A stretch of 38,592 bases of DNA from Clostridiales bacterium (lineage in GTDB: Bacteria; Bacillota; Clostridia; Christensenellales; Aristaeellaceae), in contig SVHA01000015.1 of assembly GCA_015056085.1 (NCBI GenBank), positions 1-38,592 of the forward strand, read 5' to 3'. The position numbers and the translations under genes are program-made. Under the pieces are notes generated by a model. The model was given only the letters and a program-made list of their open reading frames with translations, was not told where the DNA came from and did no database searches. Shown in pieces: positions 11,170-37,069 of the stretch (position 1 is its first letter; every line of letters begins with the position of its first letter).

Positions 11170-11208
11170 TTCCGGCAGCGGAAATTCTGCTGCCGGAATT
11201 TCTTTTTT
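11170..11208 (+). terminator. Intrinsic terminator of the feo operon
   Basis: TTCCGGCAGC (11170-11179) pairs with GCTGCCGGAA (11189-11198) and is followed by TTTCTTTTTT. Confidence 0.9.
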
Positions 11209-11293
11209 GCTGGCATATTGCCCGAGGATATGTTACAATGATCCAAGAAACTGGCACGCAAGGGTTTTTGCCGTGCCCGAAAGGAAGAAGGAA

Positions 11294-17541: not shown

Positions 17542-17573
17542 TTCCTTCCGGCGTGAAGAAAGGAGAAATGCCC

Positions 17574-21033: not shown

Positions 21034-21086
21034 AACAGCACCGTTTCGCCTGTGGGCCAGCACAATACGCAATGGAGGCGCTGCCT

Positions 21087-22127
21087 ATGTTTCAAGAGAT
21101 GTTGGAAGAATTTTGGGACAGTTTTTACTATATGACCTTTGAGGACCGTGGCGGTTTCTGGACGATTGTGGGCGTCATTGCGGGAGTGGTACTTCTGTAC
21201 CATCTGCTGCTGCGTTTTGCGCCCAAGGTCGTTGCGCCGATTCACAAGTTCCTCAGCAAACATCCGCTGATCTGGATTCTGATTCCCGCTGCAGCGCTGA
21301 TCTACTTCGTCTACGTGTCCCTGGGATGGAACCTGTGGGTGTCCGTTTCCGACTGGGCGGAAGGCGATCTGGAAGCCAGTTACGGTTTCGGGGGCTTTGG
21401 CAACTATGTTAAGATGTTCAACAGCCCCTATTTCTGGCCGGCACTGGGCAACACGCTGCTTCTGTTCTGCCTGATTCCTATCTGCCTGTTGCTGGGCCTG
21501 GGCCTGGCGCTGGTGATGGACCAGGGCCTGCGTGGCACGGCGGTGTTCCGCACGATGATCCTGCTGCCCTTCGCCCTGTCCTTCGTGGTGACGGGCACGG
21601 TCTGGGCGTATATGTATCGTCCCACAGGCGGCGTGCTGAATTCCTTCCTGAGTATGCTGGGGGTGAACGTCTCCGCAGCCATCAAGGAAGGCAACCTGAT
21701 GTGGGCCTCCAGCAGCAGTTCCATCATGCCCTCCATCATCATTGCCATGGTGTGGCAGTTCTCGGGCTATGTGGCGGTGGTGTTCCTGGCGGCCATCAAG
21801 AATGTGCGTGTGAACATCATCAACGCCGCCAAGCTGGACGGCGCCTATATGCCCCGCATTTACTGGAAACTGGTCATTCCCCAGCTCAAGGGCGCCATGG
21901 GCAGCTGCATCACCATTCTGGCAATGTACGCACTGCGCTCCTTTGACTTCATTGTTTCTCTGGTGGGCTACACCACGTCCTCTGCGTGGACGCTGCCCAT
22001 CTGGATGTACAACGAGGCCTTCCAGAACAACAACTTCGCTTATTCCTCTGCGATCAGCTGCTTCCTGCTTGCGCTGGTGCTGGTGCTGATCCTTCCGCTG
22101 ACCTACTGGACCAACAAAAGGAAGTGA
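21087..22127 (+). CDS. Carbohydrate ABC transporter permease (MalF-like)
   Basis: The 346-residue membrane protein has an N-terminal extension, then a binding-protein-dependent permease domain with about six helices. The ATPase-contact EAA loop appears as NAAKLDGAYMPRIYWKLVIP. It forms the channel with the next gene's product. The ATG at 21087 follows GGAGG by 8 bases; an upstream in-frame ATG contains that ribosome site and is rejected. The MalG-like gene starts 5 bases after its stop. Confidence 0.93.
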   Translation: MFQEMLEEFWDSFYYMTFEDRGGFWTIVGVIAGVVLLYHLLLRFAPKVVAPIHKFLSKHPLIWILIPAAALIYFVYVSLGWNLWVSVSDWAEGDLEASYGFGGFGNYVKMFNSPYFWPALGNTLLLFCLIPICLLLGLGLALVMDQGLRGTAVFRTMILLPFALSFVVTGTVWAYMYRPTGGVLNSFLSMLGVNVSAAIKEGNLMWASSSSSIMPSIIIAMVWQFSGYVAVVFLAAIKNVRVNIINAAKLDGAYMPRIYWKLVIPQLKGAMGSCITILAMYALRSFDFIVSLVGYTTSSAWTLPIWMYNEAFQNNNFAYSSAISCFLLALVLVLILPLTYWTNKRK

Positions 22128-22132: not shown

Positions 22133-23026
22133 ATGCAGAATCACGTCGGTATTGAACGCAGCCGCGAGGCGCAGAAGCAGCAGACCATCAAGATCCGCCC
22201 CAAGTGGCACATGACCGTGCTGCATATCGTGTATTACCTCATCATGGTGGTTTTCCTTGTCTTCTATATGCTGCCCTTCTGGGGCACGGTGATGACCTCC
22301 TTCAAGACCAACAGCGAGGTCATGACCTCCACGCCCATCACTCCGCCTACGGAGTGGACGCTGGAAGGCTACTCCGACGCCATGGAAGAGTTGGGCGTGC
22401 CCCTGATGACCTCTCTGGTGGTGACCATCTTCGGCGCCGCCGGTTCGGTGTTCCTGGGTTCCATCTGCGCCTATTCGCTGAGCAAATGGAAATTCAAACT
22501 CAACAATGTGTTCTTCGTGGCGCTGGTGGCGGCGACCTACCTGCCCTTCCAGGCCATCCTGATTCCGCTTTTGCAGACCATCAACACCCTGGATTTGTAT
22601 GATAACGTCTGGGGTCTGGTGCTGGTGCACTCGGTGTTCGGTATGCCCATGTGTACCGTGATGATGCGCGGCTACTACGCCGACGTCCCGGATGCGCTGG
22701 TCAAGCAGGCGATGATCGACGGCAACGGCATGTGGGCCATCTACCGCAAGATCGTGCTGCCCAACACCATGATTGCCACCATTACCACCTTCGTATTCCA
22801 GTGCACCTCCATCTGGAACGAAATGCTCTTCGCCCTGGTGCTGGGCGGCTATGATTCCAAGCCGGCCACCATCGCCCTGAACGAACTGGCGGGCACCATG
22901 GCGGCGGAATTCAACGTGCAGATGGCCGGCTCCCTGATTCTGGCACTGCCGGTGCTGATTCTCTACATCTTCATGGGCAAGTACCTCATCAGCGGACAGA
23001 TGTCCGGTGCTGTGACGGCTTCGTAA
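22133..23026 (+). CDS. Carbohydrate ABC transporter permease (MalG-like)
   Basis: The 297-residue second permease has a first helix around 30-50, FKTNSEVMTSTPITPPTEW in the typical periplasmic segment, and an EAA loop VKQAMIDGNGMWAIYRKIVLP. AAAAGGAAG precedes the ATG at 22133 by 8 bases. A GH3 gene follows 17 bases after the stop. With the solute-binding protein at 17574 and the ATPase at 24957 it makes a complete importer. Confidence 0.93.
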   Translation: MQNHVGIERSREAQKQQTIKIRPKWHMTVLHIVYYLIMVVFLVFYMLPFWGTVMTSFKTNSEVMTSTPITPPTEWTLEGYSDAMEELGVPLMTSLVVTIFGAAGSVFLGSICAYSLSKWKFKLNNVFFVALVAATYLPFQAILIPLLQTINTLDLYDNVWGLVLVHSVFGMPMCTVMMRGYYADVPDALVKQAMIDGNGMWAIYRKIVLPNTMIATITTFVFQCTSIWNEMLFALVLGGYDSKPATIALNELAGTMAAEFNVQMAGSLILALPVLILYIFMGKYLISGQMSGAVTAS

Positions 23027-23043: not shown

Positions 23044-24927
23044 ATGAAAAATCTTTTCAAAAAAGCGCTTTGTCTGGCTTTTGCGGGATGCCTGCTGATG
23101 ACGGCTTGTCCCGCCGTGGCGGAAGACGCCCTTGTGCAGCCGGAACTGGAAGCGAGAGTCAAGAACATCATCACCGTGGACGGCTACCAGTTCAAGGACC
23201 TCAATGACAACGGCGAACTGGACGTCTACGAAGACTGGCGCAAGACGCCCGAAGAGCGTGCCGACGACCTGCTGAGCCAGATGGACGCCACCGCCAAGGC
23301 GAAGCAGATGGTGCATCTGACGCTGGTGAGCAAGAAGGACAGCTGGTTCTCCAGCGACAACGTGGGCTTTGCCTTGGTGTATGAGTACATCTTCACCGAC
23401 GCCAAGACTGCCGCTGAAACCACCAACGAGATTCAGGAACTCAGCGAGAGTGCTCCGCTGGGCATCCCGATCATCTTCTCCATGGATACCGAGGCAGGCG
23501 CGGCTTTCGTCAAGGACGCCACCTTCCTGCCCGATGAAATCAGCCAGGGCGCAGTGAATGACCCCGAACTGGTCAAGGCGCTCAACGAGCTGCTCCGCAA
23601 GGAACTGATGGCGGTGGGCGTGCGTATGGCGCTGTCCCCCGACGCTGACCTGATCACCGACCCCCGCTGGGGACGCAATCAGGAGTGCTATTCTGAAGAT
23701 ACCGAAGTCGTGTCCAGCCTGATCGTGGCGGCCGTGCACGGCCTGCAGGGCGGCCCCGGCCTGACGAAGGACTCCGTCATCGCCACCGTCAAGCACTTCC
23801 CCGGCTCTGGCGCCCAGACCGATGGCGTGGACGGCACCCCTCTCACGATCAAGGAAGACTCTATTGACCTGCATCTGGCAGGCTTCAAGGCTGCCATTGA
23901 TGGCGGCGTTGCGGCTGTGATGCCCTACGGCTACTCCACCGTCCCCTATCTGGGAGGCGACGCCGTGGATAACTACGCTGACCAGTCCGCCGTGGTCATG
24001 ACCGACCTGCTGCGCGGCCAGCTGGGCTTCACCGGCATCATTCAGACCGACTGGGGTCTGAACTTCTCCGGTGCGGCCAATGCCGGTGCGGACATTCTGG
24101 GCGGCGCAGGCGTGCGCTCCACCCGCTCTGTGGTGGATGAAGTACCCGAAGAGCGCCTGACCGACGCTTGCCGCCGGATCCTGATCGCCAAGTTCGAAAT
24201 GGGCCTGTTCGAGAATCCCTACGTGGACGCTGACGCTGCTGCCTCCATCCTGGGCTGCGAAGAGCACAGGGCGCTGGCCAAGGAAGCGGCTGCCCGTTCC
24301 TTCACCATGGTGAAGTACGAGAACGCTCAGACGCTGGGCGATAAGGTCATCATCGCCGGTGAACTGGCGGATAACGCCCGTGCCCTCAACAGCGGCTGGA
24401 CCGTCAAGGAGCCCATGGAAGTGGGCGGCACCAGCATCCTGCAGGCGTTCAAGAACCGCCTGGGCGAAGAGAACGTCACCTACTACGCCGATGCGGCTTC
24501 CGTGCCTGCAGACCTGGCCGGTCAGACGGTCATCCTGGTCGTCGGCGAGAAGAGCGGCACCCATGATCCTTCCTGGGGCGCTGCCAACCTGGAATTCCCG
24601 GAAGATCAGCAGGCGCTGCTGAATGCCCTGGACGCCGCCGGCGCCAATGTGGTGTCCGTGGTGCTGATGAACCGTGCCTACGTCCTGACCCCCGTGGTGG
24701 ACAAGAGCGACAGCGTGATGCTGGCGTATCGTCCCGGCCTGACCGTGGGCGCTGACGCTGTGGTGGAAGCCCTCTATGGTGAGACTGCCATCACCGGCAA
24801 GCTGCCCTTCCAGATTCCCGCTACGATGGAACAGGTGCTTAATCAGCGCGAGGACCTGCCCAAGGACATCGTTGATCCGCTGTTCGAGTATGGCTTCGGC
24901 ATCGATGTAGCGGCCTTTGGCAAGTAA
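23044..24927 (+). CDS. Secreted GH3-family glycosidase, divergent (GH3-2)
   Basis: The 627-residue product has a signal region MKNLFKKALCLAFAGCLLMTAC... that may be either a lipobox (LMTAC) or a type I site (PAVA before ED). An EF-hand-like DLNDNGELDVYEDWR loop comes next. The GH3 motifs are DPRWGRNQECYSED, KHFPGSG and nucleophile D336 in IIQTDWG. The usual DxVHG/GATVFPHN pair is replaced by DTEAGAAFVKDATFLPDE, and LLKN in the C-domain by MVKYEN. Substrate specificity therefore probably differs from GH3-1. It lies between the permease and ATPase genes of the importer. Confidence 0.88.
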   Translation: MKNLFKKALCLAFAGCLLMTACPAVAEDALVQPELEARVKNIITVDGYQFKDLNDNGELDVYEDWRKTPEERADDLLSQMDATAKAKQMVHLTLVSKKDSWFSSDNVGFALVYEYIFTDAKTAAETTNEIQELSESAPLGIPIIFSMDTEAGAAFVKDATFLPDEISQGAVNDPELVKALNELLRKELMAVGVRMALSPDADLITDPRWGRNQECYSEDTEVVSSLIVAAVHGLQGGPGLTKDSVIATVKHFPGSGAQTDGVDGTPLTIKEDSIDLHLAGFKAAIDGGVAAVMPYGYSTVPYLGGDAVDNYADQSAVVMTDLLRGQLGFTGIIQTDWGLNFSGAANAGADILGGAGVRSTRSVVDEVPEERLTDACRRILIAKFEMGLFENPYVDADAAASILGCEEHRALAKEAAARSFTMVKYENAQTLGDKVIIAGELADNARALNSGWTVKEPMEVGGTSILQAFKNRLGEENVTYYADAASVPADLAGQTVILVVGEKSGTHDPSWGAANLEFPEDQQALLNALDAAGANVVSVVLMNRAYVLTPVVDKSDSVMLAYRPGLTVGADAVVEALYGETAITGKLPFQIPATMEQVLNQREDLPKDIVDPLFEYGFGIDVAAFGK

Positions 24928-24956: not shown

Positions 24957-26069
24957 ATGGCTGCTATTACGATCAAGGATATGAGCGTATCCTACAACAA
25001 GGGTAAGTCCTATGTGCTGGATAAACTGAACCTGACGGTGAAGGACGGCGAATTCTGCGTGTTCCTGGGACCTTCCGGCTGCGGAAAGTCCACCGCCATG
25101 CACTGCGTGGCAGGTCTGCTGGAGCCTGTGGACGGCATGATCCACTTCGGCGATGAGCTGATGACGGAAATGGAAAATGGCAAGAAGAAGACCTTCGTGC
25201 CCCCGCAGGAGCGCAACATCGCCATGGTGTTCCAGGAGTACGCTCTGTATCCCAACATGACGGTGCGCAAGAATATGTCTTTCGCCCTGGAAACCAAAAA
25301 GACCCCCAAGGAAGAGATCAACAAGCGTGTCAATGCCATGGCGCAGATGCTCTCCATTGACCATCTGCTGGACCGCCGCCCGGCGGAACTCTCCGGCGGC
25401 CAGCGTCAGCGTGTGGCTCTGGGCCGTGCGCTGGTGCGTGACCCGCAGGTGTTCCTGCTGGACGAACCTCTGGGCAACCTGGACGCCAAGCTCCGTGAGC
25501 AGGTGCGCTACGAGCTCAAGAAGATTCAGACCCAGTTGGGCATCACCACCATCTACGTCACCCACGATCAGACCGAAGCCATGACCATGGCGGATCACAT
25601 CGTGCTGATGAAGGATGGCCACATCATGCAGGAAGGCACGCCCAACGACCTGTACGACCATCCCAGCTGCGAATTCGTGGCGGGCTTCCTGGGCACGCCT
25701 CAAATTAACCTCTTCACCGCCAAGGTGGTGGAAGACGGCGGCAAACTGGCCCTGGACGCCGGCAGTTTCACCCTGCCCGTGCCGGAAGACATGGTAGAGT
25801 GCCTCATCCCCTATGCGGGCAAGCAGGTGCATCTGGGCATCCGTCCCTCCGACCTGTCTGTCACCGAAAGCGGCTCCATTGCCGGACAGGTGGAATCCAT
25901 TGAGCCTCTGGGCGATGCATACCTGGTGTATGTCCGGGTGGGCGAGCAGGTGGTTGTGGTCAAGCACGCCGAAGAACAGGCTCCCACCGAAAAGGATCTG
26001 CAGCTTGTGCCCAATCCTGCCAAACTCCATCTCTTTGACCCCGAAACGGAAAAGCGCATCAATATCTGA
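24957..26069 (+). CDS. ABC transporter ATP-binding protein (MsmX/UgpC-like)
   Basis: The 370-residue ATPase has Walker A GPSGCGKS at 38-45, signature LSGGQRQR, Walker B VFLLDEPLGNLD and switch His in VTHDQTEA. A C-terminal TOBE-type regulatory domain (LGIRPSDLSV) is present. It drives sugar import with the two permeases. GAAAGGTGATC lies before the ATG. A hairpin at 26087-26110 separates it from the carrier-protein gene. Confidence 0.95.
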   Translation: MAAITIKDMSVSYNKGKSYVLDKLNLTVKDGEFCVFLGPSGCGKSTAMHCVAGLLEPVDGMIHFGDELMTEMENGKKKTFVPPQERNIAMVFQEYALYPNMTVRKNMSFALETKKTPKEEINKRVNAMAQMLSIDHLLDRRPAELSGGQRQRVALGRALVRDPQVFLLDEPLGNLDAKLREQVRYELKKIQTQLGITTIYVTHDQTEAMTMADHIVLMKDGHIMQEGTPNDLYDHPSCEFVAGFLGTPQINLFTAKVVEDGGKLALDAGSFTLPVPEDMVECLIPYAGKQVHLGIRPSDLSVTESGSIAGQVESIEPLGDAYLVYVRVGEQVVVVKHAEEQAPTEKDLQLVPNPAKLHLFDPETEKRINI

Positions 26070-26152: not shown

Positions 26153-26383
26153 ATGCGCCAGACGATCATCGGGATCCTTCAGGACTTCAATGAAGATGCG
26201 GATTACGAAAACGAGCAGCGGCTGATCGACGAGGGAATCATCGATTCCCTGGACCTGACAGCCATTATCCGGGAACTGGAGGAAGCCTTCTCCGTCCGTA
26301 TCGATCCTTCCCAGCTGGTGCCGAAGAATTTCAACAGCGTGGATGCAATCATGGAAATGCTCCGTCGCATCAAGGGCGAATGA
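26153..26383 (+). CDS. Acyl/D-alanyl carrier protein (DltC-like)
   Basis: The 76-residue product is a single carrier-protein domain of acidic helices with the phosphopantetheine serine S32 in GIIDSLDL. The context (adenylation enzymes, MBOAT, SGNH) fits a DltC-like thioester carrier rather than a fatty-acid ACP. The ATG at 26153 follows AGAGG by 8 bases. Its stop overlaps the next start by four bases (ATGA). Confidence 0.88.
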   Translation: MRQTIIGILQDFNEDADYENEQRLIDEGIIDSLDLTAIIRELEEAFSVRIDPSQLVPKNFNSVDAIMEMLRRIKGE

Positions 26384-27861
26384 TTCGCAATGTGCTGATC
26401 TGGCTGGAGGAAACCGCCTGTGCCCGGCCGCAGGATGTTGCCTTTGAGGACGACCATGATCGCCTCACCTATGGGCAGCTGCTTTCCCGGGCGCAGGAGA
26501 TCGGCTCCTGCCTGGCTGAGATCATCCCGCCCCAATCCCCCGTGCTGGTGATGATGGAAAAGAGCCCCGACTGCATTGCCGCTATGCTGGGCGCCGTGTA
26601 CGCCGGGTGCTTCTATACCCCGGTGGACCCCGCCATGCCCCAGCCCAGGCTGAAATTGATCGCCGATGTGCTCAAGCCCGCCTGCGTGCTGTGCGAAGAG
26701 CGCTTCCGGGAGGCAGCATCGCTGCTGGCAGGTCAGGCCCCTGTGCTGGTGACCGGGGAGATTCCCGCCCGGGTGGATGAAAAGCGGCTGGAGGACATCC
26801 GCTGCCGCCATGTGGACACGGATCTGCTGTATGTGCTGTTCACCAGCGGCTCCACGGGCGTGCCCAAGGGCGTGGCCATCACCCACCGCAGCGTGGTGGA
26901 TTTCATCGACTGGGCCGTGATGACTCTGGGCATTGACTCCTGGTGTGTCTTTGGCAATCAGGCGCCCCTGTACTTCGACAATTCCGTGCTGGACATTTAC
27001 TGTGCCATCCGCACGGGAGCGAAGGTGCATTTCATCCCCAAGGGATACTTTGCCTTCCCGGCGCAGATGCCGGGATACCTCATCGAGCAGGGCGTCAACA
27101 CGATTTTCTGGGTGCCCTCGGCGCTGACCAGCGTGGGGCAGGCCGGACTGCCGGAAGGCAAATTGCCGCTGAAGAAGATCCTCTTCTGCGGCGAAGTGAT
27201 GCCCTGCAAGACCCTCAATCTGTGGAAAAAAGCCGTGCCGGACGCCCTGTTTGTGAATATGTACGGCCCCACGGAGATCACCGACGTGTGTATGTACTTC
27301 GTGGTGGACAGGGAGTTTGCGGACGACGACGCCCTGCCCATCGGCGTGCCCTGCCTGAACACCCGCATCGACCTCATCGACGGGGAAATCTGCGTCAGCG
27401 GCACCTGCCTGTCGCCGGGGTATTACAACGCCCCTGAAAAGACGGCGGAAGTGTTTGTGGAACATCCCCTGCGCCGGGGCGTGACGGAAAAGATGTACCG
27501 TACCGGCGACCTGGGCCGCTACAATGACCGGGGCGAGATGATGTTCATCGGCCGCAAGGACAGTCAGATCAAGCGCCACGGCTATCGCATTGAACTGGGC
27601 GAGATCGAATCGGTGCTGCTTTCTCTGGAAGAAGCGGACGACGGCTGCTGCCTGTATGATGCAGCGCAGGAGATGATCGTGTGCTTCTTTGCCGGCAAGG
27701 GCGACGAAAAGCAGCTCCGTCGGCTGATGAAGGGGAAACTTCCCCGGTATATGCTCCCGGACGCCTTTGTGAAAAAGGCGGCCCTGCCCAAGACGGGCAA
27801 CGGAAAAACCGATCGCATACAACTGAAACAGGAGTGGGAGAATGAGCATCCTGTCCGTTGA
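26380..27861 (+). CDS. DltA-like adenylation enzyme A1 (amino-acid:carrier ligase)
   Basis: This 493-residue adenylate-forming enzyme is predicted to activate a carboxylic acid with ATP and load it on the carrier. Core motifs are FTSGSTGVPKGV, MYGPTEITD, YRTGDLG, GRKDSQIKRHGYRIELGEIE and the catalytic Lys in GNGKTDR. In the pocket D200 (YFDNSVLDIY) matches the Asp that holds the amino group in DltA and NRPS domains. C270 in LFCGEVMP matches the DltA Cys linked to D-alanine selection. D-alanine or a similar small amino acid is therefore the expected substrate. It overlaps both neighbouring genes (4 and 20 bases). Confidence 0.88.
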   Translation: MIRNVLIWLEETACARPQDVAFEDDHDRLTYGQLLSRAQEIGSCLAEIIPPQSPVLVMMEKSPDCIAAMLGAVYAGCFYTPVDPAMPQPRLKLIADVLKPACVLCEERFREAASLLAGQAPVLVTGEIPARVDEKRLEDIRCRHVDTDLLYVLFTSGSTGVPKGVAITHRSVVDFIDWAVMTLGIDSWCVFGNQAPLYFDNSVLDIYCAIRTGAKVHFIPKGYFAFPAQMPGYLIEQGVNTIFWVPSALTSVGQAGLPEGKLPLKKILFCGEVMPCKTLNLWKKAVPDALFVNMYGPTEITDVCMYFVVDREFADDDALPIGVPCLNTRIDLIDGEICVSGTCLSPGYYNAPEKTAEVFVEHPLRRGVTEKMYRTGDLGRYNDRGEMMFIGRKDSQIKRHGYRIELGEIESVLLSLEEADDGCCLYDAAQEMIVCFFAGKGDEKQLRRLMKGKLPRYMLPDAFVKKAALPKTGNGKTDRIQLKQEWENEHPVR

Positions 27862-29407
27862 GTTTCTGATTTTTGTGGCAGCAGTGATTCTGCTGTTCTA
27901 TCTGCTGCCGAAAAAGGTGCGCTGGTGCGTGCTGCTTTTGGCCAGTGTAGGATTCTACCTGATGAGCGGCTGGCAGGGCGGCGTGTATCTGCTGGCGGTG
28001 GCGGTTCTGACCTGGTTCAGTGCCCGGCACATCGGCAAACTTCGCGCCCGGATGGACGAAGTGCTGCAGGAGGAGAATCCCGCCGCAAAAAGGAAACTCA
28101 GGCACCGGATGCGGGCATGGCTGACGGTCTGCCTTTTGCTGGTGCTGGGCGCACTGGTCTTTATCAAGTATTTTGAGCCGGGACGCATCGCCCTCAATGC
28201 CATCCTGAAGTTTTTCAACAACCGTACCCAGTTTGAAGCCTTCGAAGTGCTGGTACCCCTGGGCCTGAGTTACTTCACCTTCCAGAGCGTGGGCTATGTG
28301 GTGGATGTGTACTGGGGCAAGGTGAAGGCCCAGCCGAACTTCTTCAAACACCTGCTGTTCGTGAGTTTCTTCCCGCAGATCATGCAGGGACCCATTTCCA
28401 CCTATGAGCAGCTGGCGCCGCAGCTGCTGGCGCCCAAGGCGTTCCATCCCCAGCGGATGACCATGGGCTTCCAATTGATGCTGTGGGGTTATTTCAAAAA
28501 GCTGGTGCTGGCAGACCGCCTGGCGAGTGTGACGAACACCATTGCCGCCGGGGGGGAGCAGCAGGGCTGGCTGATTCTGCTGGGCATCGTGCTCTACACC
28601 ATCCGCCTGTACGGGGATTTCTCCGGCGGCATGGATGTGGTCAGAGGCGTTGCGATGATGCTGGGCGTGGACCTGACGGAGAACTTCCGGAGGCCGTTTT
28701 TCTCCACCAGCGTGGCGGAATACTGGCGCCGGTGGCACATTTCCCTGGGCACCTGGTTCCGCACCTATGTGCTGTACCCCCTGAGCATCTCCCGCCTGGG
28801 CGACCTTTTGAGCAAAATCGGCAAAAAGACCCTGGGCAAGAAAGCGGGGCGGATGCTGCCCGGCGCCGTGGCGACCTTCCTCATCTTCCTGCTGATTGGC
28901 ATGTGGCACACCGCCAACTGGAATGCGCTGATCTTCGGCGCATACTTTGGCGTCCTGATGGGCACGGCGATGCTGCTGGAGCCGCTGTTTAAGGTGATTC
29001 GGAAAAAGCTGCACATCACCGACAAGACGGTATGGTGGCGCATCTTCGGCTGGGGTCGCACCATGGTGCTGATTCTCCTGGCGCAGTATTTTGCCTGCAC
29101 TGTCTCGCCGGAGCAGGCGTGGACGCTGCTGCAGGGCACCTTCGCCGCCTGGGATTTTGCCGCTGCGGAAGAAACCCTCACGGGCTTCATGGCCTGGCGG
29201 GAGTGGATCATCGCCGGCGGTGCGCTGCTGATTGTGCTGCTGGTGGACATCCTCTGCGAGCGCAAGGTGGACGTGAATGGCCGTCTGGCCAAGGGCACGT
29301 TCTTCCTCCGCTGGCCGGTGCTGCTTGTGCTGATTATGGTCATTCTGATCTTCGGCTACTATGGCGAAGGCTTTGACAGCACCGCATTCCTGTATGCAAA
29401 CTTCTGA
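27842..29407 (+). CDS. MBOAT-family O-acyltransferase (DltB/AlgI-like)
   Basis: This 521-residue polytopic membrane protein has about ten or more helices. It carries the MBOAT signatures RRPFFSTSVAEYWRRWHISL (conserved H299) and GMWHTANWN (catalytic-type H356). Relatives move acyl groups from a carrier across the membrane to teichoic acid, alginate or other glycans. Length and motifs look intact. It starts inside the A1 gene, so translation is coupled. Confidence 0.93.
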   Translation: MSILSVEFLIFVAAVILLFYLLPKKVRWCVLLLASVGFYLMSGWQGGVYLLAVAVLTWFSARHIGKLRARMDEVLQEENPAAKRKLRHRMRAWLTVCLLLVLGALVFIKYFEPGRIALNAILKFFNNRTQFEAFEVLVPLGLSYFTFQSVGYVVDVYWGKVKAQPNFFKHLLFVSFFPQIMQGPISTYEQLAPQLLAPKAFHPQRMTMGFQLMLWGYFKKLVLADRLASVTNTIAAGGEQQGWLILLGIVLYTIRLYGDFSGGMDVVRGVAMMLGVDLTENFRRPFFSTSVAEYWRRWHISLGTWFRTYVLYPLSISRLGDLLSKIGKKTLGKKAGRMLPGAVATFLIFLLIGMWHTANWNALIFGAYFGVLMGTAMLLEPLFKVIRKKLHITDKTVWWRIFGWGRTMVLILLAQYFACTVSPEQAWTLLQGTFAAWDFAAAEETLTGFMAWREWIIAGGALLIVLLVDILCERKVDVNGRLAKGTFFLRWPVLLVLIMVILIFGYYGEGFDSTAFLYANF

Positions 29408-29425
29408 TCACGGGAGATGAAATTG

Positions 29426-30505
29426 ATGCAGGCGAAGATTCCTGAAACGGCAACCCGGAAAGAGAAAATCCTGTTCGCTCTGCGGGCGATTGTGTTTGCC
29501 GTGCTGCTGGCGGCGCTGCTGAGCTATACGCTGTATGTGCTGGTGCCCAAGTATGACTACGGCATCTGCTCCATCACCAACCTCTATCAGCAGGAAGACG
29601 ACACCGTGGACGTGCTGGTGCTGGGCACGAGCCTTGCCTACGGCGGCGTGAACACCAACGTGCTGTGGGAGGAATACGGCATTGCTGCCTATAACCTCTG
29701 CGGCGCTGAACAGCCTTACTGGATCAGTTATTACTATCTGCAGGAGGCGCTGAAAACCCAGCATCCGCAGGTGATTGTGCTGGACGCCAAGCCTGCCACC
29801 TATCCCGACGACTATTCCCGCCGGGGCAGGGCTTTCCTGGGCACCACAGGCATCAAGGACCCGATCATCCGCCTCAGGGCACTGCTTTCCAGCGTGGCGC
29901 CGGAGAACTACGCCAGTTTTGTGGCGGGTTTCCCCCAGCTGCACAGCTATTATCCCGATGTGACCCTGGACAACTTCGCCTATCCGCCCAATAACGGCGG
30001 GCGCGGTTTTGACTGGCAGGGGTACATTGAATCCACGGAGACGGAAGTGCATTCCAAGCCGTCTCTGGTGTGGTCCTCCACTAAAAAGAACGTCAACCCC
30101 CGCCAGGTGGAATACTTCCGCAAGACGGTGGAACTGGCACAGCGGGAAAACATCCCCGTGATGGTCATCGGCATTCCCAATCCCGACTACGCCAACGACC
30201 ATATGTACTACAACACCCTCTGGGAAGTGGCGGATGAGTACGGCGTACCCCATGTGAACTACAACGACCCCACCAACCGCTATGGCCTTTTGTATTCCTC
30301 CTGCTTCTCCGACTGGCAGCATCTCAACGTCAAGGGCAGCGTGATTTTCTCCAGGAAACTGGGCGCTGACCTCAAGGAGATGTTCCCCCTGCCGGACCGC
30401 AGGCTGGATGAAGGCTACGACGCCTGGAGAAACGGTTCCGAAGCCTGGTACGAGACGTATCCTGAATACCTGCCCGAAAAGCCGGAGGAAGGAGCGCCTG
30501 CATGA
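29426..30505 (+). CDS. Membrane-anchored SGNH-type protein (DltD/AlgX-like role)
   Basis: The 359-residue product has a single N-terminal membrane helix (about 17-40) followed by an extracytoplasmic domain. SGNH-type residues are visible: S69 in VLGTSLAYGG, Asn/Gly in NLCGAEQP, and D296/H299 in DWQHLN. Proteins in this position (DltD, AlgX/AlgJ) finish acyl transfer to the polymer outside the membrane. CGGGAG gives the better spacing to ATG 29426 than to ATG 29417. The last four bases overlap the A2 start (ATGA). The sequence is not close to classical DltD, so the role comes from motifs and position. Confidence 0.8.
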   Translation: MQAKIPETATRKEKILFALRAIVFAVLLAALLSYTLYVLVPKYDYGICSITNLYQQEDDTVDVLVLGTSLAYGGVNTNVLWEEYGIAAYNLCGAEQPYWISYYYLQEALKTQHPQVIVLDAKPATYPDDYSRRGRAFLGTTGIKDPIIRLRALLSSVAPENYASFVAGFPQLHSYYPDVTLDNFAYPPNNGGRGFDWQGYIESTETEVHSKPSLVWSSTKKNVNPRQVEYFRKTVELAQRENIPVMVIGIPNPDYANDHMYYNTLWEVADEYGVPHVNYNDPTNRYGLLYSSCFSDWQHLNVKGSVIFSRKLGADLKEMFPLPDRRLDEGYDAWRNGSEAWYETYPEYLPEKPEEGAPA

Positions 30506-31974
30506 GCGTGAACAACATTCTGGAATTCCTGGAGGAAACGGCCCGGAAAACCCCGGAGCGCATCGCCTTTGCGGATGAGAGCGAATCCCTCACCTTTGGG
30601 GAATTTTTGCAGCGCACACGGGCCATCGGCAGTGCGGTGAGCGAAATGGTTCCGCCCCGGCAGCCTGTGGCGGTGCTGATGAACGATCGCAGCGTGAACA
30701 CGGTGGCGGCGCTGATGGGCATTGTGTATGCCGGCTGCTGCTATGTGCCGCTGGACGCCTCTCTCCCCGAAGAGCGGCTGGCGCTGATTGCCCAGAGCCT
30801 CTGCCCGGCGCTGGTTTTGATGGACATGAAGGGCGAAAAGGCCGCCAGGTCCTTCGATTGCCCGGCGATTCATGTGTCCGACGCCATCGGGCATGACATC
30901 GACGCCCGGCGGCTTGACGAAATCCGTGCCCAGGCTTCCGCGGATGACCCCATGGCCATCATGTACACCAGCGGCTCCACGGGCATCCCCAAGGGCGTGG
31001 TGCAGAGTATGCGCAGCCATATCCTGTATACCACCGCCACCATTGAGAAGTACGATTTCACCGCCGACACGGTGTTTGGCAATCAGTCGCCCTTCTTCTA
31101 TGCCAATTCCATCATTGATATCTTCCCCACGCTGGCGCTGGGCGCCAAAACGGTGATCCTCCCGGCGGGGGCGCTGGCCTTCCCGGCGGTGCTGATTGAG
31201 CAACTCAATCGTCATCGGGTGATTGAACTGACCATGACGCCCTCCAGCTATGTGAAAGTGGCGTCTTCCGGCGTGCTGACGCCGGGGTGCCTGCCCCATT
31301 TGAAGTACATCGTCCTTTCCGGCGAGGCGGCCCACTGGGCCACGCTGGAAAAGTGGCTGGCAGCGGCGCCAGAAGCGGATGTGTGGAACTTCTACGGCAG
31401 CACGGAGATGTACTCCGTGGCGGTGTGGAAGCTGACGAAGACCTACGAGGATGGCCGGACCATTCCGGTGGGCCCGCTGTTTGACGGCGTGGAGATCGTC
31501 TTCACTGAAGAAGAAGGAATGCTGGTGCACACGCCCTGGCTGGCGGAAGGTTACTACCGGGATGAACACCGCACAGAGGCTGTTTTCTTTACTGGGGAGG
31601 ATGGCAAGCGGTATTACCGCAGCGGCGACATGGGCATGATGGACGAGGAGAATCACCTCGTGGTGCTGGGCCGCAAGGACACCCAGATCAAGCACATGGG
31701 CTACCGCATGGAAATCGGCGAAACGGAACTGGCCCTGCTGTCCGCCCAGGGGGTGAAGGAAGGCTGCTGCATCTTTGACAAGGACAGCGGCGTGCTTCAT
31801 GCCTTCTATACGGGTGAGGTGGATCCCAAGGCGCTGACGCCTATTCTCAAGAAGGTGTTGCCCCGCTACGCCATGCCGGACAAGGTGCATCAACTGGCGG
31901 AAATGCCCTACACGCCCACCATGAAGATCGACCGAAAAAAGATGCACATGATGTGCGAAAATTGGCAAAAATGA
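30502..31974 (+). CDS. Second DltA-like adenylation enzyme A2, altered substrate pocket
   Basis: This 490-residue adenylate-forming enzyme has intact catalytic motifs: YTSGSTGIPKGV, FYGSTEMYS, YRSGDMG, GRKDTQIKHMGYRMEIGETE and C-terminal MKIDRKKM with the catalytic Lys. The pocket differs from A1. The amino-anchoring Asp is A201 (FFYANSIIDIF), and the DltA-type Cys is Ser (VLSGEAAH). A non-alpha-amino acid, or another acyl group, is therefore the likelier substrate; loss of function is less likely given the intact core. It is the last gene of the cassette, just before the terminator at 32002. Confidence 0.85.
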   Translation: MSVNNILEFLEETARKTPERIAFADESESLTFGEFLQRTRAIGSAVSEMVPPRQPVAVLMNDRSVNTVAALMGIVYAGCCYVPLDASLPEERLALIAQSLCPALVLMDMKGEKAARSFDCPAIHVSDAIGHDIDARRLDEIRAQASADDPMAIMYTSGSTGIPKGVVQSMRSHILYTTATIEKYDFTADTVFGNQSPFFYANSIIDIFPTLALGAKTVILPAGALAFPAVLIEQLNRHRVIELTMTPSSYVKVASSGVLTPGCLPHLKYIVLSGEAAHWATLEKWLAAAPEADVWNFYGSTEMYSVAVWKLTKTYEDGRTIPVGPLFDGVEIVFTEEEGMLVHTPWLAEGYYRDEHRTEAVFFTGEDGKRYYRSGDMGMMDEENHLVVLGRKDTQIKHMGYRMEIGETELALLSAQGVKEGCCIFDKDSGVLHAFYTGEVDPKALTPILKKVLPRYAMPDKVHQLAEMPYTPTMKIDRKKMHMMCENWQK

Positions 31975-32001: not shown

Positions 32002-32026
32002 AGAGGGGGAAAACCCCTCTATTTTT
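32002..32026 (+). terminator. Intrinsic terminator of the Dlt-like operon
   Basis: AGAGGGG (32002-32008) pairs with CCCCTCT (32014-32020), followed by ATTTTTG. Confidence 0.88.
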
Positions 32027-32098: not shown

Positions 32099-32167
32099 AC
32101 AATCAAGGCAAGGTGGGAGACGAATCCACCTGCAAAACGACTACTGTATATGGAAAGGAAGGTAACC

Positions 32168-34537
32168 ATGAAGAAGCTGTCCCTGTTGCTGGCCATCATC
32201 ATGATGCTGGGCTGCCTCAGCGCGTTTGCTGAGGATGCGGCACCCGCAGGCCCCACGGAAGCTGAACTGCTTGCCCAGAACCTCGAGTTCGCAGTGATCC
32301 CTGCGGACGAGACCACTGGCCAGGCCAAGCTGTCCTATGTGGAAGGCGTCACTCCCATCCTGGAAGTGGACGGCCTGAAGTTCAAGGACATGAACAAGAA
32401 CGGCACCCTGGACGTCTACGAAGACTGGCGTCTGACCGATGCCGAGCGCGTTGACAACCTCATCTCCCAGATGAACGATGAGGAAATGGCCGGCGGCCTG
32501 CTGTGCATCAACGCTGACCTGGAAGATGCCCGCTATGTCATCGACGAGTTCGAGATGACCTGCCTGCTCTTCAACCTCAACGGCACCCCCATCTCCATCA
32601 CCAACACCCTGAACAACCTCCAGGCCAAGGCTGAGTCCATGCGTCTGGGCATCCCCATGATCTTCACCTCCGACCGTGAGTACAACTCCTTCGGCGGCTA
32701 CATCGACAAGTCCCATGAAGGCTTCGGCACTGCTTACGATCCCGAGCTGGCTTATGATCTGGCTTACTTCTACGGCCAGGCCATGAAGGCCATCGGCGTG
32801 CACGTGACCTTCGAGCCCTACGCCAACGAAATCGGCGCTCAGTACGGCGAGAACCCCGAACTGATCGCCAAGGTCATTGAAGCTGAAATCCGTGGTCTGG
32901 AAGACTCCGGCTTCGCTTCCTGCACCAAGCACTGGCTGGGCCGTGGCGGCGACGCTTCCTTCGGTGAGGCCCGCTCTGTGGCTCAGAACTTCGACAACTG
33001 GATGGTCGGCTGGAAGGCCGCTATCGATAACGGCTGCGAATGGATCATGACCAACTGCGGCGGCACTGGCATCATGAACACCATCGACGTTAAGTTCGAA
33101 GTGGACACCATGAACTACCTGCGTGAGACCCTGGGCTTCGACGGCGTTGTCGTCACCGACTGGTGGCCCTTCGGCTTCTCTCACCTGACCGGCATCACCC
33201 CCGAAGGCGTTGACCTCTCTCAGCAGACCTACGCCTGGATGATGAATCGCGTGCTGGAACTGGGCACCGATATGTTCGGCACTCCCACCGTTGACCACGG
33301 CGGCGAAGATGCCTACAACCAGAATGCTATGTGCCACCGCCCCGACCTGATCGTGGCTGGCCTGCAGGACGGCACCATCAAGCGCGTGTTCGTGGAACGC
33401 GCCCTGACCCGCATCTACTCCTTCTCCATGAAGAAGGACCTGTTCGAAGATCCCTATCGTGACGTGGACGCTGCTGTGGCCCTGACCGCCAGCGCTGAGT
33501 GGGCTGCCAACCCCACCGAGATCCACACCAACGAAGATCTCCGTGCTGCCCGTAACCCCTACGAAGTCGAACTGACTGAAAAGCTGCAGGCCAAGTCTGC
33601 TGTGCTGGTCAAGAACGACAACAACCTGCTGCCCCTGCAGAAGGGCATCAAGGTGTATGTGCAGTCCGGCAATGCTGACCGTGACGCTGGCTACAAGAAG
33701 TACATCGCCAACTATGCCACCCTGGTGGAAACCATGGAAGAGGCTGACGTTGTGATCGGCGACTTCAACAGCATCAACGACGTGGCTGAACTGTTCATCG
33801 ACGACGCTGTGTACTATGGCAAGCCCATGGTGCTGACCATGAACAACATCGATCCTGACCAGTACACTCTGGAAAACGCCGATGCTCTGATCTACATGAG
33901 CTACAACCAGTCTGCTGACCACGGCTCCACCGAGGCTGGCTTCATCACCGCCACCGAGCCCTGGGTCTATGCTGACCTGCTCTTCGGCGTGCGTGAGCCC
34001 GGCGGCGTCATCGTTAAGGAACTGGCCCGCGACGCCATCAACGACGAAGTGCAGTGGAAGGATCTGGCTGGCGATCAGGGCGCTGATCCCTACGTCCGCC
34101 TGATGGTCCAGGCTACCATGATGGCTGACAAGCAGTATCATGCTTCTCCCAACAACTGGGGCGATCCTCTGGTGCAGGCCCTGTACGGCATGAAGTACGG
34201 CGAGCAGCCTGAATTCAGGTACTCCTGCCTGATCCTGCCTCAGGTTGTGACGGCTGAAGAAGTGGAAAATTCCTCGGGCAGCATGCAGACCCAGACCACG
34301 GTGAAGACTCAGGCCAAGGCCGGCGAGCCCTTCTCCGTGTACTGCCTGATGAACAACGACGGCGCTGACGGCATGACCACTGTGGAAGTGTATGCCAACG
34401 ACGTGCTGGTTGCTGAGAAGCTCTTCACCTGCTGCGGCGACAGCTGGCGCGTGGTGGAAGTTGAGCTGACCCTGGAAGCCGGCGATTACACCATCAAGGT
34501 TGCTGACCAGGTCGGCACCATGACCGTGGTGGAATAA
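32168..34537 (+). CDS. Secreted GH3-family glycosidase, highly divergent, with C-terminal beta domain (GH3-3)
   Basis: The 789-residue product has a signal region with both a possible lipobox (MLGC) and SAFA before ED. A preface region and the EF-hand-like DMNKNGTLDVYEDWR loop follow. The barrel has KHWLGRGG in place of KHFPG and nucleophile D331 in VVVTDWW. The C-domain (KSAVLVKNDNNLLPL) is followed by about 90 residues of an Ig-like beta domain (PFSVYCLMNNDGAD to the end). Arg is mostly CGT/CGC and Ala often GCT, suggesting strong expression. It has its own promoter and terminator. Activity on a different linkage from GH3-1 is inferred. Confidence 0.85.
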   Translation: MKKLSLLLAIIMMLGCLSAFAEDAAPAGPTEAELLAQNLEFAVIPADETTGQAKLSYVEGVTPILEVDGLKFKDMNKNGTLDVYEDWRLTDAERVDNLISQMNDEEMAGGLLCINADLEDARYVIDEFEMTCLLFNLNGTPISITNTLNNLQAKAESMRLGIPMIFTSDREYNSFGGYIDKSHEGFGTAYDPELAYDLAYFYGQAMKAIGVHVTFEPYANEIGAQYGENPELIAKVIEAEIRGLEDSGFASCTKHWLGRGGDASFGEARSVAQNFDNWMVGWKAAIDNGCEWIMTNCGGTGIMNTIDVKFEVDTMNYLRETLGFDGVVVTDWWPFGFSHLTGITPEGVDLSQQTYAWMMNRVLELGTDMFGTPTVDHGGEDAYNQNAMCHRPDLIVAGLQDGTIKRVFVERALTRIYSFSMKKDLFEDPYRDVDAAVALTASAEWAANPTEIHTNEDLRAARNPYEVELTEKLQAKSAVLVKNDNNLLPLQKGIKVYVQSGNADRDAGYKKYIANYATLVETMEEADVVIGDFNSINDVAELFIDDAVYYGKPMVLTMNNIDPDQYTLENADALIYMSYNQSADHGSTEAGFITATEPWVYADLLFGVREPGGVIVKELARDAINDEVQWKDLAGDQGADPYVRLMVQATMMADKQYHASPNNWGDPLVQALYGMKYGEQPEFRYSCLILPQVVTAEEVENSSGSMQTQTTVKTQAKAGEPFSVYCLMNNDGADGMTTVEVYANDVLVAEKLFTCCGDSWRVVEVELTLEAGDYTIKVADQVGTMTVVE

Positions 34538-34752: not shown

Positions 34753-35541
34753 ATGAAGAAATGGATGGCGATCCTGCTGGCGGCTGTGATGCTGCTTGGC
34801 TGCGCTGCGGTGGCTGAAGATGCTCCCGAACAGACCCGCGCTCAGGGAACGGCCCACAAGATGGTGGAATGGACCATGGACGGCAAGTTGGACGAGTTCA
34901 ACACGGCCGATCCCCTGGTGCTTAACGACGCCACCCAGTTGGTGCGTGACGGCCATTTCTGGAATGGTCCTGACGACCTGAGCGCAAAGATCTACATCGC
35001 CTGGGACGAAACCAACCTCTACATCGGCGCTGAAGTGAACGAAGACTCTGTCTTTGGCGCCATCGAAACCCTCCCCCTGGACGGTATGGACAATTTCCAG
35101 ATCTACCTGTCCACCAATCCTGCTGATGACCCCAACCGTACCGAGTACGGCATCAACGACTTCAAGTTCTACCTGATCATGGACGGCGAATACTGGGATA
35201 CCGCTGTGGATCGCTCCATGGTTCCCAAGGATAACCGTATGCGCTACATCTCCAAGGGCCTGGACGGCGGCGAGAGCGTGCTGGAAGGCTATGAGTGCAT
35301 GGCCGAGCAGACCACCATGGGCTTCACCTATGAGTGCAAGATTCCGTGGGCCTGCTTCTCCAACGAGCGCATTGCCGTGTATACCCCCGCTGTGGGCGAC
35401 ACGGTGAACTTCAACTTCCTCATCACCGATATTTCCTATCCCTGCCCCGGCACGGAATTCGTTCCGCAGATCGCCTGGACCGGTAACGCGAGCATGGACA
35501 CCAATCCCAGCGTTTGGGGTCTGCTGACCTTCGCTGAATAA
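34753..35541 (+). CDS. Secreted or lipoprotein CBM9-like carbohydrate-binding protein
   Basis: The 262-residue product has a signal with a good lipobox LLGC at about 14-17 and an alternative AAVA site before ED. The domain has EWTMDGKLDEF, AWDETNLYIGAEVNED, YLSTNPADDPNRTEYG and closing DTNPSVWGLLTF, matching the paralogue at 16729-17541. It probably displays a glycan-binding beta-sandwich at the cell surface. AAGGAG lies 9 bases before the ATG. It is transcribed from its own repeat-bearing promoter and ends before the structured element at 35581. Confidence 0.82.
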   Translation: MKKWMAILLAAVMLLGCAAVAEDAPEQTRAQGTAHKMVEWTMDGKLDEFNTADPLVLNDATQLVRDGHFWNGPDDLSAKIYIAWDETNLYIGAEVNEDSVFGAIETLPLDGMDNFQIYLSTNPADDPNRTEYGINDFKFYLIMDGEYWDTAVDRSMVPKDNRMRYISKGLDGGESVLEGYECMAEQTTMGFTYECKIPWACFSNERIAVYTPAVGDTVNFNFLITDISYPCPGTEFVPQIAWTGNASMDTNPSVWGLLTFAE

Positions 35542-35580: not shown

Positions 35581-35660
35581 TCCGGCAAAGCAAGCCCTCT
35601 CCTCTGGGCTATACCCGGTGTGATGATACGCTCGCACCGGAGCTTTGCCGGAGTTTTTTA
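35581..35660 (+). terminator. Three-way-junction RNA element ending in a T-tract
   Basis: The outer stem TCCGGCAAAGC (35581-35591) pairs perfectly with 35642-35652 and is followed by G and six T (35654-35659). Inside are two hairpins: AGCCC/GGGCT (35593-35597/35606-35610) and CCGGTGTG/CGCACCGG (35615-35622/35633-35640). It ends the CBM9-like transcript and lies 33 bases before the next gene's start. It could instead be a regulatory leader. Confidence 0.7.
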
Positions 35661-35692
35661 TTCCTGCGTGTTTCCAGAAAGGAAGTGCAGTC

Positions 35693-37069
35693 ATGAAACG
35701 GTTGTGGCTTTTGACGCTGGTGCTTGTGTGCCTGGTCATATCCGCCAACGCTGAAACGATTCTGGTGGGCGAAGAGGAAGGCATGGTGCCCTCCCTCACC
35801 CAGGCAATTGAGCAGGCCGCCGATGGCGACACCATCCTGATGGCCAGCGGTGTGTACGACGAAAGCCGGGAGACCTTTCCCATCATGGTGGATAAGGCCG
35901 TGACCATCAGCCCCCAAGAGGGCGCTGTACCGGTGATCGTGTCTCCCAAGCAGACCACCGCCATGGAAATCACCGGCGCCGGCGCCACCGTTAGCGGGCT
36001 GAAGTTTGATCATATCCGCTGCGCCATCTGGGTTTTGGCCGATGACGTGACGGTGAAGGACTGCGTCATCACCCTGGTGGATGAAACCTGGCGCACTTCC
36101 TCTTCCGGTATGTGGATTGCAGGCGCCAAGCGCACCACCCTCACGGGATGCACCTTCACGGGCTGCAGCGTGTCCGTGGCGGGCCCGCCGATTTCCGACA
36201 AGAGCGTTGGCATCCCCGTGCTGACAGCCATGTTTGAGGTGGGCGAGGACATTGAATTCTTCACCACCCACACGGTGGAAAACAACATCGTCAACGGCGA
36301 GCCCCTGTGCTACGTCATCGGCCTCCATGACACGGTGTGGACGGAAGAAGTGGGGCAGATCATAGCCGTGGAGTGTGAGAATCTCACTTTCACCGGGCTG
36401 AATCTGGACTTTGCCAGCATCGGCATCCAGATTGCCTATTGCCAGAATGTCACCATCGACAAGTGCTCCGCCAACGATAACGGCATCTTCGGCATCTACA
36501 TCATGAAGACCGACGACTGCCTCATCACCCATTCCCGGGCCGACCGGGGCGCTCACGGCATCGACGTGCGCGACTGCGACCGGGTGACCATTCTGGACTG
36601 CGTCACCAACGAGTGCGGACAGGGCACCTTCCTCTCCTGGGGTCGGAACTGTCTGGTGCAGCGGTGTGAGATCAGCAACAACGGCACGGGTTTCTTCACC
36701 GCCAGCGGCGGCGACAACCATGTGGCCGACTGCGTCATTGAAAACAACGACCTGGGCCTGTATGTGCAGCACGAGAAGCTCTTTACCCTCACTGACACCC
36801 AGGTGAACAAAAACACCTCCTGCGGCCTGCGTGTCACCGACAGCGGCGTGGTGAGCCTGGACAACTCCTTTGCGGATAACTTCGTGGCCCACCTGGCGCT
36901 GGACTGCTACCCCCTGACCCATATGCGCTGCACCTGGACCCGCAGCGTGGACTGCGACGTTTACGCCCGCAATGGCCGGGCCATCAAGTTCATCGCCAAC
37001 ATTTTTGACGGTGAAATGGAGGATAGCTGCCAGTTTGACGGCGGCGAAGGGTATGTTTTCGTGAAGTAA
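35693..37069 (+). CDS. Secreted right-handed parallel beta-helix protein
   Basis: The 458-residue product has a signal peptide ending ISANA. It opens with VPSLTQAIEQAADGDTILMASGVYDE, the usual cap of NosD/pectin-lyase-like beta-helix proteins. Many short strand turns of the type NVTIDKCSANDNGIFGIYI, DCLITHSRADRGAHGIDV and NCLVQRCEISNNGTGFF follow. Such proteins bind or cleave polysaccharides. I cannot see a sure catalytic set, so lyase, epimerase or binding roles stay open. AAAGGAAGTG precedes the ATG at 35693. No clear promoter was found between the structured element and this gene. Confidence 0.85.
   Translation: MKRLWLLTLVLVCLVISANAETILVGEEEGMVPSLTQAIEQAADGDTILMASGVYDESRETFPIMVDKAVTISPQEGAVPVIVSPKQTTAMEITGAGATVSGLKFDHIRCAIWVLADDVTVKDCVITLVDETWRTSSSGMWIAGAKRTTLTGCTFTGCSVSVAGPPISDKSVGIPVLTAMFEVGEDIEFFTTHTVENNIVNGEPLCYVIGLHDTVWTEEVGQIIAVECENLTFTGLNLDFASIGIQIAYCQNVTIDKCSANDNGIFGIYIMKTDDCLITHSRADRGAHGIDVRDCDRVTILDCVTNECGQGTFLSWGRNCLVQRCEISNNGTGFFTASGGDNHVADCVIENNDLGLYVQHEKLFTLTDTQVNKNTSCGLRVTDSGVVSLDNSFADNFVAHLALDCYPLTHMRCTWTRSVDCDVYARNGRAIKFIANIFDGEMEDSCQFDGGEGYVFVK

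Follow-up and report, generated by a model that had tools for sequence, protein, structure and literature searches.

In this study, we analysed a 38,592-nucleotide stretch of DNA from a Clostridiales bacterium of the family Aristaeellaceae (contig SVHA01000015.1, positions 1 to 38,592 of the forward strand; the whole stretch is called the window below), whose genome is a draft of 94.84% completeness. Positions 26153-31974 of the + strand hold a cassette of five genes that encode a carrier protein (C), an adenylation enzyme (A1), a membrane-bound O-acyltransferase (MBOAT; B), an SGNH protein (D) and a second adenylation enzyme (A2). Each gene starts with ATG and has no internal stop; C and A1 overlap by 4 bp, A1 and B by 20 bp and D and A2 by 4 bp, with a gap of 9 bp between B and D. 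A first-pass annotation, made from the sequence alone, had described five tightly packed genes in the order C-A1-B-D-A2 with an extra ligase, and the intact + strand reading frames, the Pfam matches and the motifs and predicted fold of D bear this out.

26153..26383, + strand: C, phosphopantetheine carrier protein, 76 aa (Pfam PP-binding, 29.4 bits, cut-off 20.8)
26380..27861, + strand: A1, adenylation enzyme, 493 aa (Pfam AMP-binding, 197 bits)
27842..29407, + strand: B, MBOAT acyltransferase of PatA type, 521 aa (Pfam MBOAT, 32.4 bits)
29417..30505, + strand: D, membrane-anchored extracellular SGNH protein, 362 aa (motifs and predicted fold)
30502..31974, + strand: A2, second adenylation enzyme, 490 aa (Pfam AMP-binding, 174 bits)
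32002..32020, + strand: terminator-like hairpin immediately 3' of A2 (consensus scan only)

The hairpin may end the cassette transcript; the consensus scan found 25 terminator-like sites against a mean of 15.6 in shuffles.

C is the only carrier gene recognised within the cassette. Its attachment residue is Ser32 (codon 26246-26248) in the motif D-S-L-D, the D-S of which is invariant among 10 aligned carriers, and it scores 33.1 bits on the DltC model NF003464 (cut-off 68). B scores 137.7 bits on the DltB model TIGR04091 (cut-off 375), and the match of its profile to solved DltB covers only positions 8-397 of 504. It ends in the acyl-shuttle motif F-L-Y518-A-N-F and has the conserved residues His299 and His356; F-x-Y-x-x-F was present in all 10 aligned B proteins that reach the C-terminus, that of the window included. 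With this C-terminal motif and a conserved His (His356, Tyr518), B is an MBOAT of PatA type. In PatA, the motif is described as being auto-acylated and then passing the acyl group to an SGNH partner, with acetyl-CoA as the acyl source (PMC12148441).

D carries the motifs G-T-S72 and D299-W-Q-H302, which give Ser72, Asp299 and His302, and a single hydrophobic segment (residues 18-36), equal to one N-terminal transmembrane helix, so that the earlier label of a membrane protein fits. The sequence of D gave no Pfam or NCBIfam match up to an E-value of 0.001, the DltD domain PF04914 included, and no credible sequence match in the PDB. The structure model has the SGNH fold, with DltD and PatB among its structural matches, and on this model D can safely be called an SGNH protein; because its predicted fold is SGNH, B is accompanied by an SGNH partner as in PatA/PatB. 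The statement that D is closest to DltD was not safe: the best Foldseek E-value was that of DltD 6o93, yet with a TM-score of only 0.34, and DltD was not among the 50 entries displayed by VIA-align for the model.

The two adenylation enzymes differ. A1 passes the NCBIfam amino-acid adenylation model (327.6 bits, cut-off 317.4), A2 falls below it (245.4 bits), and both lie far under the cut-off of the DltA model TIGR01734 (263.8 and 222.2 bits against 559.85). Ten pocket positions were mapped by alignment in gramicidin synthetase numbering, leaving aside near-identical proteins of the same genome and fragments of fewer than 380 aligned residues. The A1 pocket read D-N-L-W-[FLWY]-C-M-D-V-K in 23 of 23 sequences; Asp200 of the window A1 is the equivalent of Asp235, which binds the alpha-amino group, and was kept in all 23. 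The A2 pocket had Ala at 235, Asn at 236, Met at 278 and Lys at 517 in 28 of 28 sequences, orphan A2 proteins included. In the A2 of the window, Ala201 replaces the alpha-amino-binding Asp, the catalytic motifs are intact (A10 Lys475) and the structure model has a pLDDT of 87.8; the motif N-Q-S-P-F-F-Y-A-N was invariant in 11 A2 sequences. Because Ala replaces Asp in all 28, A2 probably activates an acid without an alpha-amino group, and this acid is perhaps a hydroxy acid. The small aliphatic residue at 235 is a feature of alpha-hydroxy-acid domains, though not proof of the substrate; two such domains are reported in a review to carry Ala (engineered) or Gly (modelled) at this position (PMC11253843). 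The suggestion of the first-pass annotation that two different groups are handled thus gains support, since the Asp is kept in all A1 sequences examined and missing from all of the A2 sequences examined.

For comparison, a true DltA, encoded beside dltD and dltB at the locus L115, has the pocket D-L-L-S-L-C-L-V-A-K, in agreement with the published D-alanine pocket (PMC8972799, PMC11253843). The A1 of the window is the same as this DltA at 235, 239, 299, 301 and 517 and differs at the other five positions, among them 330, where an Asp is invariant in the 23 A1 sequences. A Cys in the pocket is described as selecting D-alanine in DltA (PMC8972799), and A1 was considered as a D-alanine enzyme on account of its own pocket Cys; this was dropped, as half of the pocket is unlike DltA and the Cys is not diagnostic because a gramicidin synthetase domain has it as well.

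A2 is under purifying selection like A1, with dN/dS values of 0.12-0.22 for A2 and 0.09-0.20 for A1 in the same four pairs from four loci (the A2 value of the pair L074/L076 was saturated and was excluded from the count). In a tree of 80 adenylation enzymes (80 of 82 sequences after removal of near-identical ones), A2 forms a clade with support 100, which falls outside the clade of A1 and the enzymes of other Clostridia cassettes. A1 and A2 were sisters in a small tree, and a recent duplication of A1 was considered as the origin of A2; the tree of 80 joins A1 to the other Clostridia cassettes (support 100, 52 sequences) and leaves A2 outside. As the single DltA outgroup has a long branch, the root is weak and no duplication is claimed. 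One genome of the family (G131) has two tandem A2 copies 3' of D (L035:13348-16658), each with the Y-A-N motif.

Conservation and genomic setting of the cassette

A D profile found 39 of 308 genomes of the family at an E-value of at most 1e-20. Twenty genomes scored above 500 bits, followed by a second copy in G198 at 426 bits and then by the next match at 215 bits. A2 lay directly downstream of D on the same strand in 17 of the 20 genomes holding D, counting one in which the genes are on two contigs (G156), two cut by contig ends (G303 and G361) and one with A2 in two frames (G311). A search with A2 among 200 family genomes gave 25 with an E-value of at most 1e-50, comprising 11 with an A2-type match of at least 44% identity (the genome of the window included, and one fragment) and 14 with only A1-like matches at 30-36%. 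Scanning an A2 alignment against 84,980 species (one genome each) yielded 29 loci, of which 16 had all five genes C-A1-B-D-A2 (A2 being in two frames in L083). Twelve of these 16 were, judging by their equal lengths, family contigs already counted, and the four new ones (L062, L071, L074 and L076) are labelled in their records as Murimonas intestini (flagged as contaminated), Eubacteriales, Blautia and Lachnospiraceae. Five further loci had partial cassettes (L059, L060, L073, L079 and L081), and eight had A2 without a cassette in view, some of them at contig ends (L066, L067, L068, L069, L070, L072, L077 and L084). The gene order C-A1-B-D-A2 is far beyond chance, and it is not unique to the strain, as the earlier annotation had envisaged as a refutation, but occurs across genera of the family (17 of 20) and in four further loci.

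Most of the A2 homologues that lie apart from a cassette (L067, L068, L069, L070, L072, L073 and L077) adjoin an AT3- or CAT-type acyltransferase or a carboxylesterase; L072 has none. A sheep-rumen metagenome-assembled genome, RGIG6780, has a cassette copy with B in two frames and no D match (L059:8494-9942), and its other copy (L083:11768-13290) has A2 in two frames.

Around the cassette, the window holds the following genes.

13138-14655, - strand: AraC-type response regulator (NCBIfam response-regulator and AraC models at 13141-14655, all below cut-off)
14630-16432, - strand: probable sensor kinase (by eye; no family match for the frame)
17553..18935, + strand: sugar ABC importer substrate-binding protein, CUT1 type (NCBIfam GlcS-like, 86 bits, below cut-off 500)
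18925..20904, + strand: GH3a glycosidase, signal peptide by eye (Pfam Glyco_hydro_3, 182.6 bits)
21072..22127, + strand: sugar ABC permease A (NCBIfam permease models, below cut-off)
22133..23026 (start picked within the open reading frame), + strand: sugar ABC permease B (synteny; orthologues 58-94% identical in 15 of 16 loci)
23044..24927, + strand: GH3b glycosidase, signal peptide by eye (Pfam Glyco_hydro_3, 152.6 bits)
24957..26069, + strand: sugar ABC importer ATPase, MalK/UgpC type (NCBIfam UgpC, 411.8 bits, cut-off 432)
32150..34537, + strand: GH3c, GH3-related glycosidase, signal peptide by eye (Pfam Glyco_hydro_3, 57.5 bits)
34753..35541, + strand: CBM9-like protein, signal peptide by eye (Pfam CBM9_1, 50.5 bits)
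35645..37069, + strand: right-handed beta-helix protein, signal peptide by eye (Pfam Beta_helix, 104 bits)

A CUT1 importer (binding protein, two permeases and ATPase), glycosidases and a two-component regulator thus stand together as in a glycan-use locus, with permease B assigned by synteny and the kinase by eye; the two-component pair spans 13138..16432 on the - strand, upstream of the importer genes. The cassette had been placed after a sugar importer and GH3 genes. These neighbours are real, but GH3 genes flank the cassette on both sides, two upstream and one downstream. The importer ATPase or GH3b adjoins the cassette in 16 of the 20 family genomes, and two others (G101 and G303) show only later locus genes on short contigs. 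GH3b (E-value of at most 1e-150) was found in 16 of 200 sampled genomes, 10 of which also had an A2-type match. In many relatives, an AraC-type regulator lies after or near A2 (a cluster of 13 proteins, one of them Pfam-checked). Elsewhere in the window are a GDSL esterase with weak similarity to a CE2 N-terminal domain (11162-12571), upstream of the locus, and two tandem tRNA-Ala (GGC) genes, 32 bp apart and with equal scores (481-660).

The cassette and the importer genes group differently. Between G162 and the window, the importer genes and GH3b are 84-94% identical and the five cassette genes 41-59%. Trees of permease B, GH3b and the ATPase place the window with G162 and L083 (support 100); the A1+B+D tree places it with G067, G072 and G131 (support 84), and G162 with G198 and L083 (support 100). 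In the A2 tree, the window again stands with G067, G072 and G131 (support 98). Loci missing a gene were excluded from these trees, which used 16, 17 and 16 of 17 loci. By these groupings, the cassette of the window, A2 included, has a history unlike that of the importer genes, as would be expected if it had been exchanged as a unit. An exchanged block reaching past A2 was also considered, as GH3c is 70% identical in G072 and 36% in G162, and was dropped, as relatives have more than one GH3c type and the G162 orthologue was possibly missed.

A putative acylation relay and its alternatives

It is well known that the Dlt pathway, comprising DltA, DltB, DltC, DltD and DltX, carries out the D-alanylation of teichoic acids, and that DltX is a separate microprotein with the shuttle Tyr. 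The cassette resembles it in having a carrier loaded by an adenylation enzyme, an MBOAT and a membrane-anchored SGNH protein. It differs in that A1 and A2, B and C are all under the DltA, DltB and DltC cut-offs and D has no PF04914 match (the DltD of L115 scores 319 bits on this domain), in the order C-A1-B-D-A2, in a second adenylation enzyme without the amino-binding Asp and in the usual tie to a glycan locus. Moreover, the shuttle motif is fused to B, and the five genes overlap or lie 9 bp apart, which leaves the cassette no space to encode a separate DltX. An ordinary dlt operon elsewhere in the genome, which the first-pass annotation had named as a possible refutation, was not recovered at family cut-offs: in this draft genome, the DltA model gave 12 matches with none above cut-off, and the DltB model gave none above cut-off in 120 family genomes, this one included. 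The genome has two more MBOATs (L001/L054 and L002/L055), whose surroundings gave no C, A1 or D match at the search settings used but each contain a weak A2-like reading frame. Judged by its gene content, the cassette is predicted to work like Dlt but is not a dlt operon. The earlier term 'Dlt-like' therefore holds for a carrier-based acylation cassette with an extra adenylation enzyme and fails for its parts, which lie under the Dlt cut-offs and include a PatA-type MBOAT with a fused shuttle motif.

The cassette shares with PatA/PatB-type systems, which O-acetylate peptidoglycan, alginate and cellulose, the C-terminal F-x-Y-x-x-F and conserved His of the MBOAT and an SGNH partner; the difference is that PatA draws on acetyl-CoA, whereas the cassette operon has a carrier and adenylation enzymes (C, A1 and A2). 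MBOAT/SGNH pathways other than Dlt are described as having no carrier protein (PMC12148441). Four-gene A-C-MBOAT-SGNH cassettes of other Clostridia, for which no name was found, have the same four functions; they differ in the order A-C-B-D, in having no recognised A2 and in their A pockets (often with Lys at 239), and 14 aligned D proteins of these scored 100-133 bits on the window-type D profile. In Vibrio, the adenylation enzyme and carrier of AlmEFG supply an amino acid (glycine) to a surface glycolipid, lipid A; its transferase is not known to be an MBOAT or to have an SGNH partner. Among the titles and abstract openings of open-licence papers, no description was found of a carrier-based MBOAT-SGNH cassette with two adenylation enzymes.

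Taking these data together, we propose that the cassette encodes an extracytoplasmic acylation relay that depends on a carrier and is usually linked to a glycan-use locus, and in which A2 most likely feeds a second acid to the same carrier; in our judgement, the chance that this proposal is right is about even. A1 would adenylate an alpha-amino acid and load it onto C at the phosphopantetheine arm; the membrane protein B would receive the acyl group from C onto the Tyr of its own F-L-Y-A-N-F motif on the outer side; and D would accept it on Ser72 and pass it on to a glycan hydroxyl, either outside the cell or in the envelope. The substrate of A2 would be another acid, one that has no alpha-amino group (either a small hydroxy acid or a plain aliphatic one); the same carrier and relay would most likely receive this acid too, with the result that two kinds of group would be placed. 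We infer all of the chemistry, as well as which two acids are used, what accepts them and that A2 loads C. A wider reading, which we offer tentatively and with less confidence, is that gut Clostridia hold exchangeable cassettes, each with one carrier and MBOAT-SGNH relay, two adenylation chemistries and two kinds of ester on an extracellular glycan, and that the set is changed by swapping the whole cassette.

Several observations weigh against this proposal. Two of the 20 family cassettes have no adjacent A2 (G101 and G313, the contig of the latter ending 2 kb after D), A2 is on the opposite strand beside an AT3 acyltransferase in G268, and A2 homologues in L067, L068, L069, L070 and L072 have no carrier match in the fetched stretch; because of the cassettes without adjacent A2, the A2 on the opposite strand and the homologues that stand alone, A2 is not strictly part of the acylation machine. 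G009 and G268 lack a window-type importer or GH3 gene beside the cassette. Six genomes with GH3b (G025, G046, G052, G071, G085 and G145) have no cassette in the fetched stretch, which contig ends cut in several, and no D match, which makes the cassette a linked yet optional component of the locus. Apart from the grouping of the window, the A2 tree is weak, with G162 beside G159 (support 72) and not beside G198 as in the A1+B+D tree. The genome has one LtaS-like protein (62 bits, cut-off 970), and a teichoic-type acceptor is possible for this reason. As to the substrate of A2, McyG is reported to have Val at 235 yet to activate L-Phe (PMC11253843), so Asp at this position is not strictly required for amino acids.

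The absence of a carrier match near stand-alone A2 homologues would also fit an A2 that does not load C but is an acyl-CoA ligase or serves another acceptor, the acyl-CoA being used by B directly or by another acyltransferase and A1 with C supplying a different group. B is of PatA type, and PatA is described as drawing on acetyl-CoA (PMC12148441); in addition, stand-alone or displaced A2 genes lie beside a CAT-type acyltransferase in L069 and beside an AT3 acyltransferase in L067 and L073 (by Pfam) and in L068 and L077 (by similarity to these). However, these A2 proteins share a Cys after Y-A-N and group together, so that their role may differ from that of A2 in a cassette. The A2 of the window falls among the same genomes as its A1, B and D do, and on amino-acid adenylation and DltA models the scores of A2 (245 and 227 bits, each below cut-off) exceed those on CoA ligase models (at most 153 bits). 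We consider this alternative rather unlikely. An A2 without any part in surface acylation, activating instead an acid freed from the glycan (such as an ester-linked acid), would suit the secreted-looking GH3 enzymes, the sugar importer and the upstream GDSL esterase with weak CE2 similarity of the glycan-use-like locus, as well as the orphan A2 that follows a carboxylesterase in L070. Such a catabolic role appears improbable, since A2 overlaps D by 4 bp and follows D in 17 of 20 family cassettes, it shares the history of the cassette and not that of the importer genes, and the locus showed no other recognisable gene for the breakdown of such an acid.

The least probable of the alternatives, in our view a poor fit, is a rearranged system for the D-alanylation of teichoic acids, with A2 as a DltA copy that is redundant or in decay. 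It would explain the four functions shared with Dlt, the Cys of A1 that is described as selecting D-alanine in DltA (PMC8972799), the LtaS-like protein and the best Foldseek E-value of D, which is to a DltD. Against it stand the unmet DltA, DltB and DltC cut-offs and the lack of a Pfam DltD match, the A1 pocket that is unlike the L115 DltA at five of ten positions, including the invariant Asp at 330, the presence of the same Cys in a gramicidin synthetase domain, and the restriction of the window-type D to 20 of 308 family genomes. A2 itself forms a separate clade (support 100) and is under purifying selection, though it is in two frames in L083.

Related cassettes in Clostridia

Relatives of A1 (profile E-value of at most 1e-120) were found in 40 of 245 genomes of the class, and 20 loci (L216-L235), mostly the best-scoring, were taken from 20 of these 40 genomes. 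Twelve had A-C-B-D in a row, two had one gene between A and C, two had A-A-C-B, and four were incomplete or scattered. Of the 19 B-type proteins, 14 ended in a strict F-x-Y-x-x-F, three had a variant that keeps the Tyr, and two were DltB-sized without the motif; one of the 14 with the strict motif, in L220, lies outside its cassette. The 14 of 19 with the strict motif indicate that MBOATs combining a fused shuttle with putative carrier loading are not uncommon among Clostridia, the cassette of the window being a special form with A2.

The adenylation pockets of L216-L235 vary widely, many with Lys at 239, a residue that features in codes for acidic substrates. These loci may belong to a family of systems that acylate surfaces with diverse building blocks. 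At L232:7576-8760, L234:8444-9634 and L047:7534-8709, a PLP-dependent decarboxylase (TIGR03099-like, below cut-off) is encoded between A and C or next to them, and a similar one was seen by eye at L046:3798-4991. By analogy with butirosin, where such a decarboxylase changes a carrier-bound acid, it might modify the acid held on the carrier. An independent layout with two adenylation enzymes occurs in L233:6611-11127 and L235:6928-11457, where tandem enzymes are accompanied by a carrier and by an MBOAT of DltB size that lacks the shuttle motif. Five of six D proteins from other Clostridia (L219, L220, L223, L226 and L229) have G-D-C where the D of the window has G-T-S, and the nucleophile of these proteins may be Cys. 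Longer D-like proteins of about 875-1066 aa are encoded at L179:3707-6418 and by similar long frames in L180, L181, L182 and L185; that of L179, the only one scanned, has laminin-G-like domains after the SGNH part. An MBOAT adjoins the long protein in four of the five, and neither C nor an A enzyme could be recognised in the sequence retrieved.

In summary, MBOAT-SGNH surface acylation is known mainly as D-alanine on teichoic acids, which is carrier-based, and as acetyl on glycans, which is acyl-CoA-based. The cassette described here appears to unite Dlt-style carrier loading with a PatA-style MBOAT with a fused shuttle and adds a second loading enzyme. If the relay works as proposed, a surface glycan could be decorated with whatever acid an adenylation enzyme is able to select, which would widen the surface chemistry to be expected of gut bacteria.

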